From: Bacillota bacterium
GTDB lineage: Bacteria; Bacillota; SHA-98; Ch115
Direction of reading: 5' to 3'
Assembly (NCBI GenBank): GCA_013178415.1
Contig: JABLXA010000002.1
Location: 186,001-250,000, forward strand
Length of the DNA: 64,000 nucleotides
Shown: one piece after another, positions 8,784-32,207 of the stretch
Layout of the letters: each line of letters opens with the position of its first letter
How positions within the stretch are numbered: the first letter of the stretch is position 1
Made by a program: the position numbers and the translations under genes
Notes under the pieces: generated by a model
What the model was told of the DNA's origin: nothing
Databases searched by the model: none
Seen by the model: the letters and a program-made list of their open reading frames with translations, nothing else

Positions 8784-9392
8784 TTACCGCCCCCCCACTA
8801 ATCTGCTCTGCAGAATCTTCTTGGCGCGGTATAGCCTCGTCTCAACTGTCCTTAACGGAAGCTTAAGGATCTCGCCGATTTCACGATACGAGAGACCTTC
8901 ATAATGATATAGAATGATGACTATACGGTAGTTCTCCGGCAGCTCCGCTACCTCCCGCCACAGAAGCTCGGCCCTCTCCCTGTTTATGACGATCTCCTCA
9001 GGCCCTATATCATCGTCAGGGGGATCAAACTCCCCGCTATGCCCCTCAGGATTATCCTGGCATGAAACCTCCTCAAGGCATGTGAAGGAGATGACTCTGG
9101 CTCCCTGCCTGCGTTGCTTCCGCCACCAGTCGATAGTCTTGTTTGTGGCGATCCGGTAGAGCCAGGTGCCCAGCTTTGAATCCCTGCGGAATCCGCGGAT
9201 AGACCGGAATGCATCGAGGAATACCTCTTGAGTTAGGTCGCGGGCATCCTCATGGTTGTATGTGGCCCTGAACGCCAATCTATACACAGCCGCCTGGTAT
9301 TTCCTCACCATTTCTTCAAAGGCGGATAGATCTCCCGACGCTATCCTTGCCACAATGGCGCTATCCTCGTCCAGGGGGAACTCTTTTCTCAT
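8784..9392 (-). CDS. ECF RNA polymerase sigma factor (RpoE/SigW-like)
   Basis: 202 residues with sigma region 2 (about 27-95, including DARDLTQEVFLDAFRSI and the -10-reading SKLGTWLYRIATNKTIDWWR). After an acidic linker comes region 4 (about 140-195, ELPENYRIVIILYHYEGLSY, then LPLRTVETRLYRAKKIL). There is no region 1 or 3, as expected for an ECF factor. It directs RNA polymerase to a small regulon, probably including its own operon. The group cannot be fixed without comparison; the short helix-turn-helix and the zinc-finger partner place it with SigW/RpoE-type factors. Confidence 0.9.
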   Translation of the reverse strand: MRKEFPLDEDSAIVARIASGDLSAFEEMVRKYQAAVYRLAFRATYNHEDARDLTQEVFLDAFRSIRGFRRDSKLGTWLYRIATNKTIDWWRKQRRQGARVISFTCLEEVSCQDNPEGHSGEFDPPDDDIGPEEIVINRERAELLWREVAELPENYRIVIILYHYEGLSYREIGEILKLPLRTVETRLYRAKKILQSRLVGGR

Positions 9393-24975: not shown

Positions 24976-26643
24976 TCAGAAAGTGTGCGTGTCCACCAGC
25001 GATATGACCTTATTTGCTATTTCTCTGAAAATAGGAGCTGCAACGCCTCCTCCGCTGCCACCTTCTTCAGAAAGAACCACAATCACCATCGCTGGCTCAT
25101 CAGCAGGCACATAACCAGCGAACCAGGCGTGAGTCACAGGCTTTCCATCAATTACCTTTCCGGTTTCGCTCGTGCCAGTCTTGCCGGCAGCGCCGGAGGG
25201 ACATATCGTCTCAGCTTCCCTCCCAGTTCCTGAAAGCACCGTCTGCCGCAGCATCTGTCTTACCAGCGCGGTCACTTCGGGTCTAAAGACCTTCTTTTTT
25301 TGCACAGTTGGGAAACTTTTTAAAAGTAAGCCATCATTCCCCCTGACCTCCAGGACCACCTTGGGCCTTACAACCTCGCCGCCATTCGCTATAGCAGACA
25401 TGAGCGTGGCTACCTGAAGAGGAGTGGCAGTCACCTGGCCCTGGCCTATTGATGCATTAGCCAGGTCCTGGAGGGACATATGCCATAGATCCGGAATGCT
25501 CCCTGGGCGCTCCTCGGGTATACCAAGCCCCGTGATCCCGCCCAAGCCGCAGGCCTCCATATACTCAATGAGTTTCCTCCTGCCAAGTCTCTGCCCTACG
25601 TCAATGAAAACAGAGTTGCAGGATTCGGCCATCGCGTCTGTAAAGGAGATGCGCCCGTGCCCTCCTTCATCTGCTTTGTAGCATTTGAAACGTACACCGC
25701 CAACATCAACATAACCCTTGTCTGTAAACTCTTCATCACAAGTCACGATGCCCTCTTGTAGCGCAGCGGCCGCAACCAGGACTTTCATGATGGATCCGGG
25801 CGGATATGGCAAGACAGCACGATTGACAAAAGGGGCTCCAGGTTTCCCAAAGGCTGCAGATGGGTTATTTGGGTCAAAGGTCGGACGAGTGGTCATGGCG
25901 AGAATTTCTCCTGTATGCGGGTCCATCACAACTATGGCTCCTCGAGGGAGTCTTTCGTCAGCCACATGCTCCACGATTTCCTGGATATCACAGGAGATTG
26001 TAAGGACAAGATTCCATCCTCCCTGGCCGGAGGGAGCCACAATACGATATCCGAGGCCAGGGATGAGCATATTTCTAGCATCCACATAGGCTAGCAATTT
26101 GTAAGCCGAATCCGAGGCGAGATAATCATCAAACGCTGATTCAATCCCCATGATCCCATGCCCGTCCTTTGGGCTCACATATCCTATGAGATGGGCGGCC
26201 ATATCCCCTGGCGAATATCGCAGCCTCAATCTATGGCGGATCACGCCATTTTCTCTCAACCATGATGATGCTCCTGCAAGTGGTTGTAAGTTACGAGGGA
26301 AAAGGAGAAATGGGGCCCCATCTTCAAGTCTTCTCTTTAGATTATCTTGAGATTCCCGGGTGATCTTGCTGAGAAGCGAAGAGAGCCGCTGATCATCATG
26401 AGAAAGGGCGGGAAATACCACGAGACGGTCTTCAGCATAAACGGAGGTAAGCTTCCTGCCCTTGCGATCAAGAATCTCACCCCTGGCTGGAGATAAGTTT
26501 ATTGACAAGGTCCGCTGCTTGATTCCACTTACCATAAGGTCGTGGCCTGTAAAGACCTGTATCCAGAAAAGCCTCCCCAAGAGCACAATGAAGCACAAAA
26601 ACAGGCAAAAGCATAGGCGCCGCAGCCTTCCTTCTTGAAGCAC
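24976..26643 (-). CDS. Class B penicillin-binding protein (transpeptidase)
   Basis: 555 residues. An N-terminal membrane anchor (LCFCLFLCFIVLLGRLFWIQ) precedes a dimerisation domain (LSPARGEILDRKGRKL) and a transpeptidase domain. That domain has SxxK in YPPGSIMK, SxN in ESCNSVF and KTG in AGKTGTSETG, all intact, so it should cross-link peptidoglycan. PASTA domains, common in SpoVD/PBP2x-type proteins, are absent. Start is GTG 26643 with GAGGTGA eight bases before it, just after the mltG stop. The position between mltG and sigK hints at a sporulation or septal role, but that is inference. Confidence 0.9.
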   Translation of the reverse strand: MLQEGRLRRLCFCLFLCFIVLLGRLFWIQVFTGHDLMVSGIKQRTLSINLSPARGEILDRKGRKLTSVYAEDRLVVFPALSHDDQRLSSLLSKITRESQDNLKRRLEDGAPFLLFPRNLQPLAGASSWLRENGVIRHRLRLRYSPGDMAAHLIGYVSPKDGHGIMGIESAFDDYLASDSAYKLLAYVDARNMLIPGLGYRIVAPSGQGGWNLVLTISCDIQEIVEHVADERLPRGAIVVMDPHTGEILAMTTRPTFDPNNPSAAFGKPGAPFVNRAVLPYPPGSIMKVLVAAAALQEGIVTCDEEFTDKGYVDVGGVRFKCYKADEGGHGRISFTDAMAESCNSVFIDVGQRLGRRKLIEYMEACGLGGITGLGIPEERPGSIPDLWHMSLQDLANASIGQGQVTATPLQVATLMSAIANGGEVVRPKVVLEVRGNDGLLLKSFPTVQKKKVFRPEVTALVRQMLRQTVLSGTGREAETICPSGAAGKTGTSETGKVIDGKPVTHAWFAGYVPADEPAMVIVVLSEEGGSGGGVAAPIFREIANKVISLVDTHTF

Positions 26644-26656
26644 TCAATAACTCACC

Positions 26657-27868
26657 TCAACGGATTTCCTTGGAGCGGGGATCTATTCCTCCAACCTTTG
26701 TCGCTTGCACCTTAGTTTGGACCTTTTTTGTGGCTTTAATGTGATCTGAATAATCTTCTGAGAAGATGTGCCCTCCTTGGTTATCTGAGACAAAATAGAG
26801 ATACTGTGTTTTTGCGGGACGAAGCGCGGCGCATATGGAGGAAAGGCCTGGGTTTGCTATAGGCCCTGGAGGGAGGCCTGGGTGCAGGTAGGTGTTATAA
26901 GGTGAGGGAACCTTGAGGTCATCCAAGGTCAACCTAGCCTTTGGATGGGGCAGGAGATACTGGATGGAGGCACAGGATCCGAGAGGCATGCCGAGCTTGA
27001 GACGATTATAGAATACAGATGCCACAAGGGGCCTCTCTGAATCAAGTCTGGCCTCTCTCTCCACCAGAGACGCGATTATGATCACATCCCTAAGGGAAAA
27101 GGGAGGCATGATGCCGGTATCTTTGAGCACGGGGACCACTCTCCTGAAGAACTCCATCACCATGAGCCTGATTATCTCCCTTTCGCTTGTGCCCAAAGGG
27201 ATTTCATAAGTGTCAGGGAAAAGATAGCCTTCCAGCCCCGGGGTATGTACCGGGATGGCGCTGATAGTGGCTTCATCCAATTCATCTGTGAAGGGAATCC
27301 TTGGCCCAAAGAGATCAGAGAGAGTCAGAGATGAAACCAGGTCCAGAAAGTGGGTCTCATCGACCAGGTTTTTCTTCGCCAGCGCTCCGGCTATTTCTTT
27401 TGCCGTGAATCCCTCGGGGACGGTGAGGCTTGCCCTGATAACCCGGCCCTGGTCTATCATGGCTGTGATTTCCGGGATGCTCATTCTCTCGGATACTTTA
27501 TAATAGCCCGCCTGAAGGCGCCGGTCCACTCCTTTGAATTTAAGATAAGCCATGAAGATTCGCCTACTTTTTATGAGACCTGCCTTATAGAGGCGGTCCG
27601 CGACAACCCTGGCGGTTTCTCCCCGATGGATTGGCACTATCTCTTCATGTGCTGTTGGAGCCTCACAGACAGGCGTAAGACATAGAAGTATGGATAGCGT
27701 CCCAAATACGAGAATAAAGCCAGAAAACATGACAATAAATAGAAGGAGCCGCGGTCTTCTCTCTTTGCTCAGCGGGAAGCGGCCTATCAAAGGATGTATC
27801 TGTGGCTGCGGCGAAGGATGTAGTGTTGAAGGTAACTGGGAAAGCAATTCAGGCCCACCCCCCACCAT
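26657..27868 (-). CDS. mltG: Endolytic murein transglycosylase MltG (YceG)
   Basis: 403 residues. One membrane helix (about 41-62) and a YceG domain with VADRLYKAGLIKSRRIF (LysM-like part) and the catalytic Glu segment IIASLVEREARLDSERPLVA, followed by YNRLKLGMPLGSCASIQYLL and SPYNTYLHPGLPPGPIANPG. It cuts nascent glycan strands near the synthetases. ATG 27868 abuts a TATAAT box (27869-27874, minus strand; TTCAGA lies 17 bases further up). If that promoter is used, translation would begin inside, possibly at TTG 27847. In many Bacillota mltG follows the DUF1292 gene; here a divergent operon lies between them. Confidence 0.93.
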   Translation of the reverse strand: MVGGGPELLSQLPSTLHPSPQPQIHPLIGRFPLSKERRPRLLLFIVMFSGFILVFGTLSILLCLTPVCEAPTAHEEIVPIHRGETARVVADRLYKAGLIKSRRIFMAYLKFKGVDRRLQAGYYKVSERMSIPEITAMIDQGRVIRASLTVPEGFTAKEIAGALAKKNLVDETHFLDLVSSLTLSDLFGPRIPFTDELDEATISAIPVHTPGLEGYLFPDTYEIPLGTSEREIIRLMVMEFFRRVVPVLKDTGIMPPFSLRDVIIIASLVEREARLDSERPLVASVFYNRLKLGMPLGSCASIQYLLPHPKARLTLDDLKVPSPYNTYLHPGLPPGPIANPGLSSICAALRPAKTQYLYFVSDNQGGHIFSEDYSDHIKATKKVQTKVQATKVGGIDPRSKEIR

Positions 27869-28006: not shown

Positions 28007-28036
28007 TTGACATGGGGCTTTTATCTTTGCTATCAT
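28007..28036 (+). promoter_or_regulatory. Sigma-A type promoter of the riboswitch operon
   Basis: TTGACA (28007-28012, perfect -35) is followed after 18 bases by TATCAT (28031-28036). Transcription should start near 28043, about 30 bases before the first riboswitch stem. The preceding bases 27875-28006 hold nothing else that I recognise. Confidence 0.65.
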
Positions 28037-28071
28037 GTAGGTAAAGCTAAATAATCATTATTCGCGGCCAC

Positions 28072-28270
28072 CTTAGACGCTGAATCTTCCTCGAAACGAA
28101 GGGAGATCGGGGGAACCATTTCGGAGCCCGAAAACCATTCATGTTCCTTTACGGGCTCAGGGGTGAATCCTGGACCGGGGGGTCCGGGTAGGGTTAGCTT
28201 TTCGACCCGAACCCGTCAGCTCACCTCGTAAGCGTTGAAGAGCGAGGATGGCTTTTCTTCCTCCTTTTTG
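28072..28270 (+). ncRNA. Cyclic-di-AMP riboswitch (ydaO/yuaA type) with possible terminator
   Basis: The conserved ydaO-motif blocks appear in the right order: GCTGAATC (28079-28086), GGGGGAACC (about 28109-28117), GGGGTGAATCC (about 28160-28170), GGGTAGGG, and the long 3' block CCCGAACCCGTCAGCTCACC then TCGTAAGCG. The closing stem pairs CTTAGACGC (28072-28080) with GCGTTGAAG (28232-28240). Just behind lies a weak stem, GAGGA (28244-28248) with TCCTC (28259-28263), followed by T5, which can act as terminator. GAAGA (28237-28241) can instead pair with TCTTC (28256-28260), breaking both the closing stem and the terminator. This fits the known OFF-switch behaviour of the class. It controls the operon starting at 28416. 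Confidence 0.88.
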
Positions 28271-28415
28271 ACTATTCGAGCGCCCTAAATGAGACATTTT
28301 ACACCTTAAGGTGCATCTCTGGTTTCCCCTCATAGGAATTTCCCTTTTCCGCAGGATCCTGCCGAAACCGTCACCTGCGTCATGGCGAGGCCGCCTGATG
28401 GAGGCCTGAAAGACG

Positions 28416-29417
28416 ATGAAACTACGGGTAGCCATACTTTACAGCCCTAGGGCTAGGGCGAGCGCCCTCTCGTCCCGCGATGCCACATGGCATGACCAGA
28501 CACAAAATACAGTTACTGCGGTGGAACAAGCCCTGCGGCAAATGGGACATTACCCTGAACCTCTGCCATCGACCATCGAAGGGTTCCATTCCCTCGCTTC
28601 AGGTAACTATGATGTAGTCTTCAACTTGGCGACCGGTTCACGAACCAAGCGAGAACAGGCAAACTATGTCGCGTTCTTAGAATCCCTTGGAATGCCGTTT
28701 ACTGGGTCAGGCCTTACCACTCAGATTCTATGCCTTCACAAACATATCACAAAGATGGTCATGAAATTCCATGGTATACCAACCGCGGCTTTCCGGATCT
28801 ATGACACAACAGATATCTCCCAGGATACAGTTCTTGACTTTCCCGTCATAGTAAAGCCTTCGAGTGAAGGTTCATCCGCCGGAATAGGACCTGAATCCGT
28901 GATAGAAGACACATCCGCGCTGAAAACCCTCATCTCTTCCATGCTTAATACATATCCAGGGCCAATCCTAGTGGAGCATTTCCTCCCGGGACGCGAATTC
29001 ACTGTCGCAGTGATGGGCAACGAAGATCCTGTCGCTTTGCCGCCGGAAGAGATAGTCTTTGATGAAGGGACGGGAGATCCTACCGGACATCTATATACGC
29101 GTGATGTGAAAAGGAGGGATGCCATAACACCCGTATGCCCGGCGAAAATCGAAAGGGCTCTGGAAGATGCAATAAAATCTATATCTCTGAAGACGTATAG
29201 AGCGTTAGGCTGTCGTGGATATGCACGCGTGGACATTCGTCTAGATGAGAAAGGTGTGCCATGTGTTCTTGAGGTAAACAGCCTGCCTGGACTTGAGCCT
29301 GGATTCAGCGAATTTCCTAGAATAGCAAAGGCGGCGGGGATGAGTTATGGCGTATTGATTGAGAGAATTCTTCAGTATGCTCTTGATGGAAAATCTCAGG
29401 ACCAGGAGAATGGTTGA
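28416..29417 (+). CDS. D-alanine-D-alanine ligase family ATP-grasp enzyme
   Basis: 333 residues. ATP-grasp fold of the Ddl family: an N-terminal substrate domain (VAILYSPRARASALSS, YDVVFNLATG), ATP-binding strands DFPVIVKPSSEGSSAGIG and LVEHFLPGREFTVAVMG, and the metal-binding end RVDIRLDEKG then CVLEVNSLPGLEPG. It should join two carboxylate/amine substrates via an acyl phosphate. The N-terminal segment departs from cell-wall Ddl, and a typical Ddl substrate loop is not clear to me, so another amino acid pair may be ligated. GGAGG lies about ten bases before the ATG. First gene behind the c-di-AMP riboswitch; the opine dehydrogenase gene follows after 41 bases. Confidence 0.82.
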   Translation: MKLRVAILYSPRARASALSSRDATWHDQTQNTVTAVEQALRQMGHYPEPLPSTIEGFHSLASGNYDVVFNLATGSRTKREQANYVAFLESLGMPFTGSGLTTQILCLHKHITKMVMKFHGIPTAAFRIYDTTDISQDTVLDFPVIVKPSSEGSSAGIGPESVIEDTSALKTLISSMLNTYPGPILVEHFLPGREFTVAVMGNEDPVALPPEEIVFDEGTGDPTGHLYTRDVKRRDAITPVCPAKIERALEDAIKSISLKTYRALGCRGYARVDIRLDEKGVPCVLEVNSLPGLEPGFSEFPRIAKAAGMSYGVLIERILQYALDGKSQDQENG

Positions 29418-29458
29418 ATCAATAGATGGGCCATAGGCCCTAGAACAGGGGTGAAAAA

Positions 29459-30553
29459 ATGGAAAGGCCAAATCGATTTGCGGTCCTTGGTGCTGGTCAC
29501 GGGGGCCAGGCCATGGCGTGTCACCTGGCTCTCATGGGGTTTGAGGTCAAGCTTTTCAACCGCAGCTGGCACCGGATAGAGCCCATTAAGATGCGCGGAG
29601 GAATAGAATTGACCGGGGAGGTGACGGGTTTTGGCGCGCCACAGGTAGTGACATCTAACCCGGAAGAAGCAGTAGATGGGGCTGACGTAGTCATGGTGGT
29701 CGTGCCGGCCTCGGGACATTCCTGGATCGCCAAGACCTTTGCCCCTTATCTTAACGAGAGTCAGGTTGTCCTGCTGAACCCCGGGCGAACTGGCGGGGCC
29801 ATGGAATTCGTAAAGGTGCTGCGGGAGGCAGGATGCAAGTCAATGCCAGTCGTAGGTGAAGCTCAAACATTCATCTATGCCAGCCGGAACATGGGCCCTG
29901 CCCAGTCGCGCATCTTCAGGATCAAGAATACAGTGCCTGTGGCGGCGCTCCCTGCCGCAGATACTCAAAGATTGCTTGAAAAAGTCAGGGAGGCCTATCC
30001 TCAGTTTGTTCCCGCCCGAAGCGTCCTAAATACAAGTCTGGACAATATGGGGGCGGTATTTCACCCAACTATAACATTGCTGAATACCGGATGGATCGAA
30101 GCCCGGGCGGGAGAATTCGATTTCTACTTTGAAGGGGTAACCTCATCAGTAGCAAAAGTCCTCGAAGCGGTCGACCATGAACGAGTGTCTGTGGCTGCAG
30201 CCCTCGGTATAAAAGCCATAAGTGCGCTGGAATGGCTTGAGATGGCCTATGCGGCGACTGGCGAGAGCCTATATGAGGCGATGCACAACAATGAAGGTTA
30301 TGCCAATATCAAGGCTCCTCCCACGATCAGAAATCGATATCTCTTTGAGGATATACCCGCAAGCCTGGTGCCCATAGCATCCATCGGAGCGCAGCTCAAT
30401 GTGCCCACCCCGACCATCTCGGCGCTGGTGCAGATAGGTTGCCTGGTGCATGGAATAGATTACTGGCGAGAAGGGCGCACCGTAGAAAAACTTGGCATTG
30501 CGGGTATGTCAGCTGGCGAGATTCAAGAATGGGTCTTTCATGGAAGGAAGTGA
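29459..30553 (+). CDS. Opine (NAD/NADP octopine/nopaline) dehydrogenase family protein
   Basis: 364 residues. An N-terminal Rossmann domain with FAVLGAGHGGQAMACHLALM and DVVMVVVPASGHSWIAK binds NAD(P). The all-helical C-terminal domain contains NMGAVFHPTITLLNTGWIEA, which holds the His used for catalysis in octopine-type dehydrogenases. Members reductively join an amino acid amine to a 2-oxo acid, or oxidise such opines. Substrates here are unknown. AGGGGTGA lies five bases before the ATG. It is flanked by a Ddl-like ligase and a cobalamin protein in one operon. No nicotianamine-synthase-like or metallophore export gene is nearby, so a staphylopine-type role is not supported. Confidence 0.82.
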   Translation: MERPNRFAVLGAGHGGQAMACHLALMGFEVKLFNRSWHRIEPIKMRGGIELTGEVTGFGAPQVVTSNPEEAVDGADVVMVVVPASGHSWIAKTFAPYLNESQVVLLNPGRTGGAMEFVKVLREAGCKSMPVVGEAQTFIYASRNMGPAQSRIFRIKNTVPVAALPAADTQRLLEKVREAYPQFVPARSVLNTSLDNMGAVFHPTITLLNTGWIEARAGEFDFYFEGVTSSVAKVLEAVDHERVSVAAALGIKAISALEWLEMAYAATGESLYEAMHNNEGYANIKAPPTIRNRYLFEDIPASLVPIASIGAQLNVPTPTISALVQIGCLVHGIDYWREGRTVEKLGIAGMSAGEIQEWVFHGRK

Positions 30554-30557
30554 AGAT

Positions 30558-32207
30558 ATGAAGGGGAAAGGACCGGAGAACGGCGTCATTCTTGCGGCTT
30601 GTATTGGAGATTGCGTCCATGTGGCGGGAGTCATGGCTTTCCTCGATATCGCAAGAAGTCATGGTTTCGAGACGACATTCATGGGGCCTGCGGTTCCTGT
30701 CTCATCCTTGCTGGAAGAGGCAGGAAGACTCAAGCCTGACATCATTGCCATAAGCTATCGTTTAGATCCATCTGCTCTTGGCAACCTGCTTTCTGAATTC
30801 AAGGAAGGTATCTCGAAAGCTAGGATTGAGGGGACTAGGCTTCTTTTTGGCGGCACCCCTGCAACAGGCGAGATTGCCAAGAAATCCGGGATCTTCTCTC
30901 ATATCTTCACCGGAGGAGAATCTCCTGATGAGGTGCGGGTGATTCTCCTGCAGGAGCAGGCTCAGCCGGAGGCCAATAAAGCTCATGCGAAAAACCTCAT
31001 AGAAAGGATCGAAGGAAAGAAGCCCTTCCCTCTGCTAAGGCATCATTTCGGCCTTCCCACGGTGGAAGAGACAGTAAAGGGAGCCCGGGAGATAGCGATG
31101 GCAGGCGTCTTGGATGTGCTCTCCTTAGGTCCTGACCAGAATGCCCAAGAACACTTCTTCCATCCAGAAGACATGGACCCTGCGCAAAACGGAGCAGGCG
31201 GGGTCCCAGTTCGAACAAGAGAAGATTTCATCAGGATATATGAAGCCTCCAGATGTGGGAATCACCCGCTGGTCAGATGCTATAGCGGAACCCGCGACAT
31301 CATCAAAATGGCTGCTGTCCTCAAGGAAACCATACACAACGCCTGGTGCGCGGTGCCCCTTTTCTGGTATAACGTCCTCGATGGCAGGAGCACACGCCCG
31401 CTCAAAGATGCCATATCCGAGAATCAGCAAGTGATGAAATGGCATGCAGACAGGGGCATACCGGTCGAAGTGAACGAAGCCCATCACTGGAGCCTCAGGA
31501 ACGCTCCCGACGCCGTGGCGGTGGCAACTGCATTTCTCGCCGCTTACAACGCCAAGAAGATGGGAGTAAAGCACTATGTGGCTCAGTACATGCTCAATAC
31601 ACCACCTGCAACATACGCCAGGATGGATCTTGCGAAGATGTTGGCTAAGATAGAGCTTATAGAGGCCCTCCATGACAATGATTTCATCTCATACCGGCAG
31701 GTACGTGGGGGACTGGCCAGCATGTCGCCAGAGAAAGATTTTGCAAAGGGACAGCTGGCAGCCAGCACCTTTTTGGGCATGCTCCTGAGACCGCACATTG
31801 TTCACGTGGTAGGCTTCTCGGAAGCATATGATGTAGCAAGACCTAAAGAGGTCATAGAAAGCGTCCAGATAGCCGCAGGCACCATCCACAATATCCTGGA
31901 TGGCTCGATAGATATCCAAAATGACCCCATCATAATGGAAAGGAAGGAGTTTCTGCTAAAGGAGGCCGGTGTGATTCTGGATGCTATCTATACAATTGGC
32001 AAGGGTTCTCCTGATCCATGGTCTGATCCAGAGACTCTTGCTTCGGCGGTGAAGCTTGGCATACTTGACGCTCCACATCTGGTGGGCAATCCCGCAGCCT
32101 GCGGGAAGATCACAACCAGGATCATTGACGGGGCATGTTGGTCTTGCGACCCGCATACCGGAGAACCCGTCACTGAAGGCCAGAGAATTCGTGCCCTTGG
32201 GCTATAG
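30558..32207 (+). CDS. Cobalamin-binding protein with glutamate-mutase-E-like domain
   Basis: 549 residues. The first 130 resemble a B12-binding domain (GVILAACIGDCVHVAG, KPDIIAISYRL, LLFGGTPATGE, IFTGGESPDE). The remainder resembles the barrel subunit of glutamate mutase and related carbon-skeleton mutases (RPLKDAISENQQVMKWHADR, AVATAFLAAYNAKKMGVKHY). In classical glutamate mutase the two parts are separate proteins (S and E); here they are fused, B12 part first. The cobalt-ligand motif is Asp18-Cys-Val-His21-x2-Gly24, one residue longer than the canonical DxHxxG. The longest frame starts at 30492, but ATG 30558, four bases after the opine dehydrogenase stop, has GGAAGG in front. No repair protein (MutL-like) gene lies next to it. 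Reaction unknown. Confidence 0.72.
   Translation: MKGKGPENGVILAACIGDCVHVAGVMAFLDIARSHGFETTFMGPAVPVSSLLEEAGRLKPDIIAISYRLDPSALGNLLSEFKEGISKARIEGTRLLFGGTPATGEIAKKSGIFSHIFTGGESPDEVRVILLQEQAQPEANKAHAKNLIERIEGKKPFPLLRHHFGLPTVEETVKGAREIAMAGVLDVLSLGPDQNAQEHFFHPEDMDPAQNGAGGVPVRTREDFIRIYEASRCGNHPLVRCYSGTRDIIKMAAVLKETIHNAWCAVPLFWYNVLDGRSTRPLKDAISENQQVMKWHADRGIPVEVNEAHHWSLRNAPDAVAVATAFLAAYNAKKMGVKHYVAQYMLNTPPATYARMDLAKMLAKIELIEALHDNDFISYRQVRGGLASMSPEKDFAKGQLAASTFLGMLLRPHIVHVVGFSEAYDVARPKEVIESVQIAAGTIHNILDGSIDIQNDPIIMERKEFLLKEAGVILDAIYTIGKGSPDPWSDPETLASAVKLGILDAPHLVGNPAACGKITTRIIDGACWSCDPHTGEPVTEGQRIRALGL

Follow-up and report, generated by a model that had tools for sequence, protein, structure and literature searches.

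Three open reading frames follow one another closely on the plus strand of the window (the whole 64,000-nucleotide stretch of DNA analysed here), with gaps of 41 and 4 bases, exactly the packing that a preliminary description of this DNA had reported. They are preceded by a promoter-like sequence and an RNA element (Table 1). The three protein assignments of that description also stand: the first gene encodes a Ddl-like ATP-grasp enzyme, the second a member of the opine dehydrogenase family (ODH), and the third a B12-binding protein resembling glutamate mutase, with a weak Met_asp_mut_E match on the same chain as its B12-binding domain. A YceG/MltG gene and a penicillin-binding protein gene lie divergent from this operon.

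Table 1. Features of the operon and its leader, in window coordinates
Feature	Position	Strand	Evidence
Candidate sigma-70-type promoter, TTGACA-18-TATCAT, extended -10	28007..28036	+	Consensus scan, 11/12 matches
c-di-AMP riboswitch aptamer RF00379 (ydaO/yuaA leader)	28068..28249	+	cmscan, 88.4 bits
Candidate expression platform: hairpin from aptamer 3' tail, T-rich 3' arm	28234..28272	+	RNA fold, weak
Ddl-like ATP-grasp ligase, 333 aa	28416..29417	+	Dala_Dala_lig_C (PF07478), E 5e-40
Opine dehydrogenase family enzyme, 364 aa, NADP-type motif	29459..30553	+	Octopine_DH (PF02317), E 5e-48
Single-chain B12 protein, 549 aa, B12-binding domain + glutamate-mutase-E-like barrel	30558..32207	+	PF02310, fold, profile
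B12-binding domain, CxHxxG motif (C19, H21, G24)	30585..30950	+	Pfam, residues 10-123, E 3e-9
Mutase-like barrel + C-terminal region	30984..32204	+	hhalign of A2 to MutE

The promoter, rated as good at the outset, retains that standing as a candidate: its -10 element is preceded by TG, and the region contains two promoter-like sites where shuffled sequences lead one to expect 0.3. The match to the RF00379 covariance model spans its full length (1-134; E 2.5e-19 in a cmscan of the 64 kb window, where the gathering score is 38) and is the sole Rfam match within the window. The covariance check that had been proposed for the ydaO-type element thus came out in its favor, and the RNA ahead of the three genes is, by this match, a genuine c-di-AMP riboswitch. 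A single RF00379 copy was found in the genome, the one upstream of this operon, and two genes with diadenylate cyclase domains are present. Riboswitches of this class behave as off switches with osmotic targets (PMC9960051). The candidate expression platform of the window folds weakly (-14.7 kcal/mol, z -1.8), and a strict terminator scan after the aptamer found none; among 54 related leaders, 19 have a hairpin by a strict rule. The idea that the leader hides the ribosome-binding site was rejected, the fold of 28250-28425 being no better than those of shuffled sequences.

By its residues the ATP-grasp enzyme is no D-Ala-D-Ala ligase. It falls below all Ddl cut-offs (best NCBIfam score 179 bits against 243; TIGR01205, 145.5 against 245.65), and it and its relatives are devoid of the N-terminal EREIS/EHEVS-type Glu and the omega-loop Tyr. 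Both residues are present in a canonical Ddl encoded elsewhere in the same genome (L214:4296-5336), and a housekeeping role for the window enzyme was rejected on these grounds. The closest solved relative of ODH is PDB 1bg6, which matches over almost the whole chain (E 3e-80). His202, Arg293 and Asp298, which we take to be the active-site His, Arg and Asp of the family, are kept in at least 97% of 102 relatives, most of which also have N34-R35, part of an NADP-type NR[ST] motif.

The B12 protein yields an AlphaFold model of high confidence (pLDDT 91.6) whose best PDB fold match is glutamate mutase (1cb7_B); the whole chain lies nearest to glutamate mutase and the aminomutases. Comparison of A2 with MutE by hhalign covers 356 columns (probability 91%, E 1.2e-6), and a sequence search of the PDB with the barrel alone returned nothing useful. 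Membership in the glutamate mutase family itself was rejected: the Met_asp_mut_E match (E 4e-5, 22.7 bits) is below the cut-off of 26.6, and the arginine claw R66, R100, R149 aligns with H163, Q197 and Y242, which are conserved in about 101 relatives, in a remote alignment in which the neighboring Arg161 and Arg240 could stand in. Because the glutamate-binding arginines are changed, the substrate probably differs from glutamate. The Glu that lines up with GlmE E330 does not vary. In the cobalamin-binding motif His and Gly are found in 101 of 101 relatives, with Cys in 93 and Asp in 8, so that most members depart from the DxHxxG of base-off/His-on B12 proteins. MutL adjoins the B12 protein or is fused to it in relatives; it is absent from the window's genome, and its absence in G000-G003 led to its rejection as an obligate partner. 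The window's genome has a CobA/BtuR-type adenosyltransferase gene and no PduO-type one.

The preliminary description had staked its case on the three families occurring together in other genomes, and they do so well outside the window's own genome. The B12 family is present in 87 of 399 sampled genomes, and ODH adjoins the B12 gene in 95 of 99 loci. It is this pair that forms the conserved core, with the ATP-grasp gene as a variable third member. Non-canonical ATP-grasp enzymes, asparagine-synthase-like enzymes and MutL are the commonest partners; different ligase families occupy the amide-forming slot, and at most loci it is empty, with no such gene in the neighborhood. In one relative a PylC-like ligase, far below the PylC cut-off, sits beside the pair. 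Wall genes also occur as neighbors. Of the 92 loci searched for RF00379, 46 have it ahead of the operon, distributed over at least 15 families; the other half, many complete genomes among them, have no RF00379 in front, which implies that the pathway is not linked to c-di-AMP everywhere. Control also extends in trans. Where the B12 gene stands apart (G290, G360), ODH is found elsewhere behind its own RF00379, and the riboswitch likewise precedes a separately located Ddl-like ligase (G062, G175, G247) or asparagine-synthase-like gene (G052, G349). Its other targets in the same genomes include OpuAC betaine transporters, TrkH, TrkA and an antiporter, and several are wall hydrolases. Chance adjacency was rejected on the strength of the 95 loci, the co-control in trans and the MutL fusion. 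Three ideas about the product or the amide-forming enzyme were also dropped: an NAGGN-type amidotransferase (L094 scores far under the TIGR03104 cut-off and agrees with asparagine synthase B), a dead, lactam-synthetase-like amidotransferase (L094 lacks Cys2, which had prompted the idea, but the MCG start is retained in at least six relatives), and an opine metallophore (no such cluster is among the recurrent neighbors).

These elements can be assembled into a pathway. High c-di-AMP would turn the operon off through the riboswitch, and low c-di-AMP, as under K+ limitation or high external osmolarity, would leave it expressed. The B12 protein, a single chain, would use adenosylcobalamin radical chemistry to rearrange a substrate resembling an amino acid; that it is a mutase is suggested by its fold, the adjacent or fused MutL of relatives and the conserved Glu aligned with E330. 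ODH would use NADPH to couple an amino acid reductively to a 2-oxo acid, generating an opine-type secondary amine; the anabolic direction is proposed because ODH has the NADP-type motif and its partners are ATP-dependent and amide-forming. The ATP-grasp ligase, often replaced in relatives by an asparagine-synthase-like enzyme, would form an amide on the opine-type compound; mutase, ODH and ligase may act in a different order. The product would most likely be a compatible solute, made while K+ and betaine uptake are also on. The combination of mutase, reductive coupling and ligation under c-di-AMP, advanced in the preliminary description, fits the evidence; the product and its service as a solute are inferred. 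That the locus is an off switch on c-di-AMP-controlled synthesis of an amidated or amide-linked opine-type compound, probably a compatible solute, strikes us as an evenly balanced proposition. Several observations weigh against this reading: the lack of an amide-forming gene near most loci, the half of the searched loci without RF00379 in front, the weak expression platform of the window, the lack of MutL in its genome, CxHxxG in place of DxHxxG, and the wall genes found as neighbors and among RF00379 targets.

The main rival keeps the c-di-AMP-controlled pathway and sends its product to the cell wall, as an unusual or amidated wall-peptide residue incorporated into peptidoglycan or modifying it. 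AsnB-type enzymes amidate wall peptides in some Gram-positives, four genomes (G033, G134, G341, G379) have their only above-cut-off murD beside the ODH-B12 pair, and Tepidanaerobacter relatives have a canonical Ddl divergent beside the operon, to which the divergent wall genes of the window and the wall hydrolases under RF00379 may be added. Yet MurD accompanies the pair in those four loci only, from two families, many riboswitch-ODH-B12 loci are without any wall gene, the commonest partners are of other kinds, and the window ligase does not have the residues of the D-Ala-D-Ala ligase that its genome encodes elsewhere. A wall compound is rated as unlikely.

Operation in the catabolic direction, after the manner of amino acid fermentation, with the B12 enzyme rearranging an amino acid and ODH oxidizing a secondary amine, is considered improbable. 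Aminomutases, to which the B12 protein's fold is related, act in fermentation ahead of dehydrogenases, several carriers are amino-acid-using anaerobes, and Tissierellia loci have 2-oxoacid oxidoreductase- and kinase-like genes upstream; the NADP-type motif of ODH, partners that consume ATP to form amides, and control shared with K+ and betaine uptake all speak for synthesis. For the B12 protein, a role as methyltransferase or corrinoid methyl carrier in place of mutase is very improbable: taken alone, its B12 domain does match the corrinoid proteins of methyltransferases, MtgC and MttC among them, and a distant likeness to methionine synthase has been described (PMC2626281), whereas the whole-chain relationship, the MutL of relatives and the invariant Glu all favor a mutase.

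Many anaerobic bacteria that are only distantly related have this switch coupled to this set of enzymes, and the recurrence points to an uncharacterized pathway, whose product is probably a small molecule that protects against stress. Here an entire metabolic pathway recurs as a target of the c-di-AMP riboswitch, and in the window's genome it is the sole target found. Growth at low c-di-AMP or high salt offers a handle on the reaction of a B12 family predicted in 2009, and could reveal new B12 chemistry, possibly a new osmolyte. In its broadest form the proposal places under riboswitch control by c-di-AMP a pathway that joins a single-chain adenosylcobalamin mutase of a new class, acting on a new substrate, to an NADPH-dependent opine synthase and exchangeable amide-forming enzymes in the making of a new class of compatible solute by anaerobic Bacillota-like bacteria; we offer it tentatively, at somewhat less than even confidence.

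Contrary to what had been supposed, the gene set is not wholly unrecognized. Zhang et al. (2009) predicted this B12 family, then in 11 genomes, as having an N-terminal B12-binding domain and PF02317 as its constant neighbor, several organisms also having D-Ala:D-Ala ligase and asparagine synthase close by (PMC2667541), and Mavromatis et al. (2009) noted the ODH-B12 operon of H. orenii (Hore_09740/Hore_09750; PMC2626281). Judged by these features rather than by alignment to the paper's sequences, the window protein belongs to that family, and its operon is the same gene set. What these two accounts say of the set assigns it no function and includes no c-di-AMP riboswitch, MutL link or glutamate mutase fold. 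A literature search found no later function and no connection of RF00379 with opines; the genes may be listed in supplementary material to Nelson 2013 or to earlier ydaO surveys. As a member of the ydaO/yuaA class the riboswitch is well above the cut-off over its full length, and it differs in preceding a metabolic pathway, the targets on record being mainly transporters and wall enzymes (PMC9960051, PMC10117811). The ligase has the ATP-grasp domain of D-Ala-D-Ala ligase in common with that enzyme, and differs in the missing Glu and Tyr. Relative to 1bg6, the N-(1-D-carboxylethyl)-L-norvaline dehydrogenase of Arthrobacter 1C, ODH has Asn-Arg in place of the NAD-type Asp after the second strand. 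With glutamate mutase (MutS/MutE, GlmS/GlmE) the B12 protein shares the fold, the full-length profile match, the Glu and, in relatives, the MutL partner; it is set apart by having B12 domain and barrel on one chain, by CxHxxG, and by His, Gln and Tyr at the three substrate-arginine positions. The pyrrolysine enzymes PylB, PylC and PylD offer an analogy only, to which the PylC-like ligase of one relative adds: PylB is a radical-SAM enzyme independent of B12 and PylD is not an opine dehydrogenase, unlike the enzymes of the window, yet the logic of a mutase, an amide ligase of D-Ala-D-Ala-ligase fold and an NAD(P) dehydrogenase runs parallel to the set described here.

The preliminary description had proposed a ydaO-type riboswitch upstream of the operon, and a covariance model search bears this out: RF00379, the Rfam model of the c-di-AMP riboswitch (ydaO/yuaA leader), matches end to end, scoring 88.4 bits against a cut-off of 38. 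The good promoter claimed ahead of it is an extended -10 site with 11 of 12 consensus matches, and the three genes 3' of the riboswitch are as tightly packed as claimed, separated by 41 and 4 bases. No other RF00379 copy was found in the genome (3.57 Mb). Its two diadenylate-cyclase-domain genes presumably enable it to make the ligand; a CobA/BtuR-type adenosyltransferase gene is also present. Two wall-enzyme genes lie divergent from the operon.

Coordinates of features in the window and in loci (L-numbers) cut from compared genomes (G-numbers) or from the window's own genome
Feature	Position	Strand	Remark
Promoter, extended -10	28007-28036		
c-di-AMP riboswitch RF00379	28068-28249	+	
Ddl-like ATP-grasp ligase ORF	28416-29417		first gene
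Opine dehydrogenase family (ODH, PF02317) ORF	29459-30553		second gene
B12 protein ORF	30558-32207		third gene; B12-binding domain and glutamate-mutase-E-like barrel
YceG/MltG and penicillin-binding protein genes	24976-27868	-	
Tandem RF00379 pair	L084:8549-8675, 8815-8938	-	G060; upstream of a single ODH-B12 operon
Asparagine-synthase-like remnant	L176:8702-9055	-	G362; short, between riboswitch and ODH
Asparagine-synthase-like gene	L094:2237-3733	+	RF00379-controlled
Asparagine-synthase-like gene	L195:3187-4641	-	RF00379-controlled
B12/mutase-MutL fusion	L177:3306-7007	-	1233 aa; distant ODH alongside
B12/mutase-MutL fusion	L178:1739-5383	+	1214 aa; distant ODH alongside
Housekeeping-type Ddl	L214:4296-5336		own genome
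Ddl-like ATP-grasp paralogue	L213:5089-6102	+	own genome, contig C3

Zhang et al. (2009) predicted the B12 family, with PF02317 always alongside and Ddl and asparagine synthase close by (PMC2667541), and Mavromatis et al. (2009) reported the operon from H. orenii and from other anaerobes (PMC2626281); neither paper gives a function for the gene set. No link between the set and c-di-AMP was found in the literature searched. As far as could be checked, the following are new: regulation by c-di-AMP both in cis and in trans, the association with MutL, the fold, and the changes at the active site.

Of 399 sampled genomes of the phylum, 87 (57 of 265 genera) carry a relative of the B12 protein; relatives also occur on contigs titled Aminicenantes, Bacteroidales/Bacteroidetes and Actinomycetota, metagenome bins being open to misassignment. 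Among 99 loci left once evident duplicates were dropped (one or two more may persist), 95 have ODH and the B12 gene on one strand and no more than 4.5 kb apart, nearly always as immediate neighbors, which excludes the possibility, raised at the outset, that the families co-occur in no other genome.

An RF00379 with the orientation of the operon stands in front of it in 46 of the 92 loci whose genome was searched, that is, in 19 of 50 groups (B12 protein at 75% identity) and, by our count of family labels, at least 15 families; its start mostly lies 200-300 bases from the ODH match. A tandem pair is found in one genome; the ODH-B12 pair of G403 has no RF00379 in front. The trans cases are stronger evidence for c-di-AMP control than this placement in cis. 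Two genomes (G290, G360) lack ODH beside the B12 gene and carry it elsewhere under its own RF00379 (L181, L179). A Ddl-like ATP-grasp gene stands behind a second RF00379 in Fervidicola ferrireducens (G062, the same genome as G146), G175 and G247 (L099, L185, L186), and an asparagine-synthase-like gene stands behind one in G052 and G349 (L094, L142, L195). L142 of G349 reads RF00379, asparagine-synthase-like gene, RF00379, ODH, B12; L195 holds another such gene of that genome. Further RF00379 targets in carrier genomes are OpuAC-type betaine transporters, TrkH, TrkA, a cation/proton antiporter, a SulP transporter, peptide and amino acid ABC transporters, and wall hydrolases. In several genomes (L095, L098, L100, L101, L184) RF00379 precedes a small DPBB lytic-transglycosylase-like gene, itself upstream of a cysS-like gene.

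Amide-forming partners vary. Near the ODH-B12 core are ATP-grasp ligases of the window type (13 loci) or a second Ddl-like type (4), asparagine-synthase-like enzymes (12, of which 10 at 200 bits or more), MurD (4) and a PylC-like ligase (1). The 17 ATP-grasp and 10 asparagine-synthase-like loci do not overlap; since only about two shared loci are expected under independence, mutual exclusion is only suggested. In unbiased clustering of neighbors over 52 groups, the ATP-grasp cluster (12 groups) ranks next after B12 and ODH; asparagine-synthase-like (7) and MutL (5) clusters are on the same strand throughout. An ABC ATPase cluster (8 groups, mixed strands) and an always-opposite-strand protein (8) are comparable in frequency and look like background. 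The L176 remnant is apparently a decayed first operon gene. The L094 and L195 proteins lack the N-terminal Cys (glutaminase nucleophile) kept by at least six relatives.

The ydaO riboswitches are described as off switches whose targets in Bacillales and Clostridia are, in more than half of cases, transporters of ions, osmoprotectants or amino acids (PMC9960051). A terminator follows the aptamer in 19 of 54 related leaders (strict hairpin rule, a few duplicate genomes counted in); the window's own hairpin is weak. We therefore infer that high c-di-AMP would repress the operon and that an amide-linked opine-type solute would be made when c-di-AMP is low. That the product instead enters or modifies peptidoglycan is an alternative kept alive by loci of two families in which the only murD adjoins the ODH-B12 pair, and by the wall genes among RF00379 targets.

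The operon's ODH is closest to N-(1-D-carboxylethyl)-L-norvaline dehydrogenase (1bg6), with conserved active-site His, Arg and Asp. Asn-Arg-Ser/Thr takes the place of the Asp that follows the second strand in 1bg6; NADP enzymes, 6-phosphogluconate dehydrogenase among them, share this pattern, which favors the synthesis direction. Neither the EREIS-motif Glu of Ddl nor the omega-loop Tyr is present in the operon's ATP-grasp enzyme, whereas the housekeeping-type Ddl has both; the L213 paralogue, 41% identical to the operon's enzyme, is also without EREIS.

The AlphaFold model of the B12 protein (mean pLDDT 91.6) is closest in the PDB to the glutamate mutase E subunit, then to lysine and ornithine aminomutases, and the protein's profile aligns with that of MutE over 356 columns (probability 91%, E 1.2e-6). 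The B12 motif DxHxxG is kept in 8 of 101 relatives and reads CxHxxG in 93, with His in all. MutL, which presumably reactivates glutamate mutase, adjoins the pair in nine loci, in G039 and G368 separating the ODH gene from the B12 gene; in G113 and G108 it forms one chain with the B12 protein (MutL match E 5e-81 in the 1214-residue G108 protein). A search of the window's own genome found no MutL. This adjacency and fusion make a radical mutase likelier than a methyltransferase. In alignment with GlmE, its glutamate-binding arginines R66, R100 and R149 fall on H163, Q197 and Y242 of the B12 protein, each of which 100 or 101 of 101 relatives share, whereas the Glu aligned with GlmE E330 is retained as E422.
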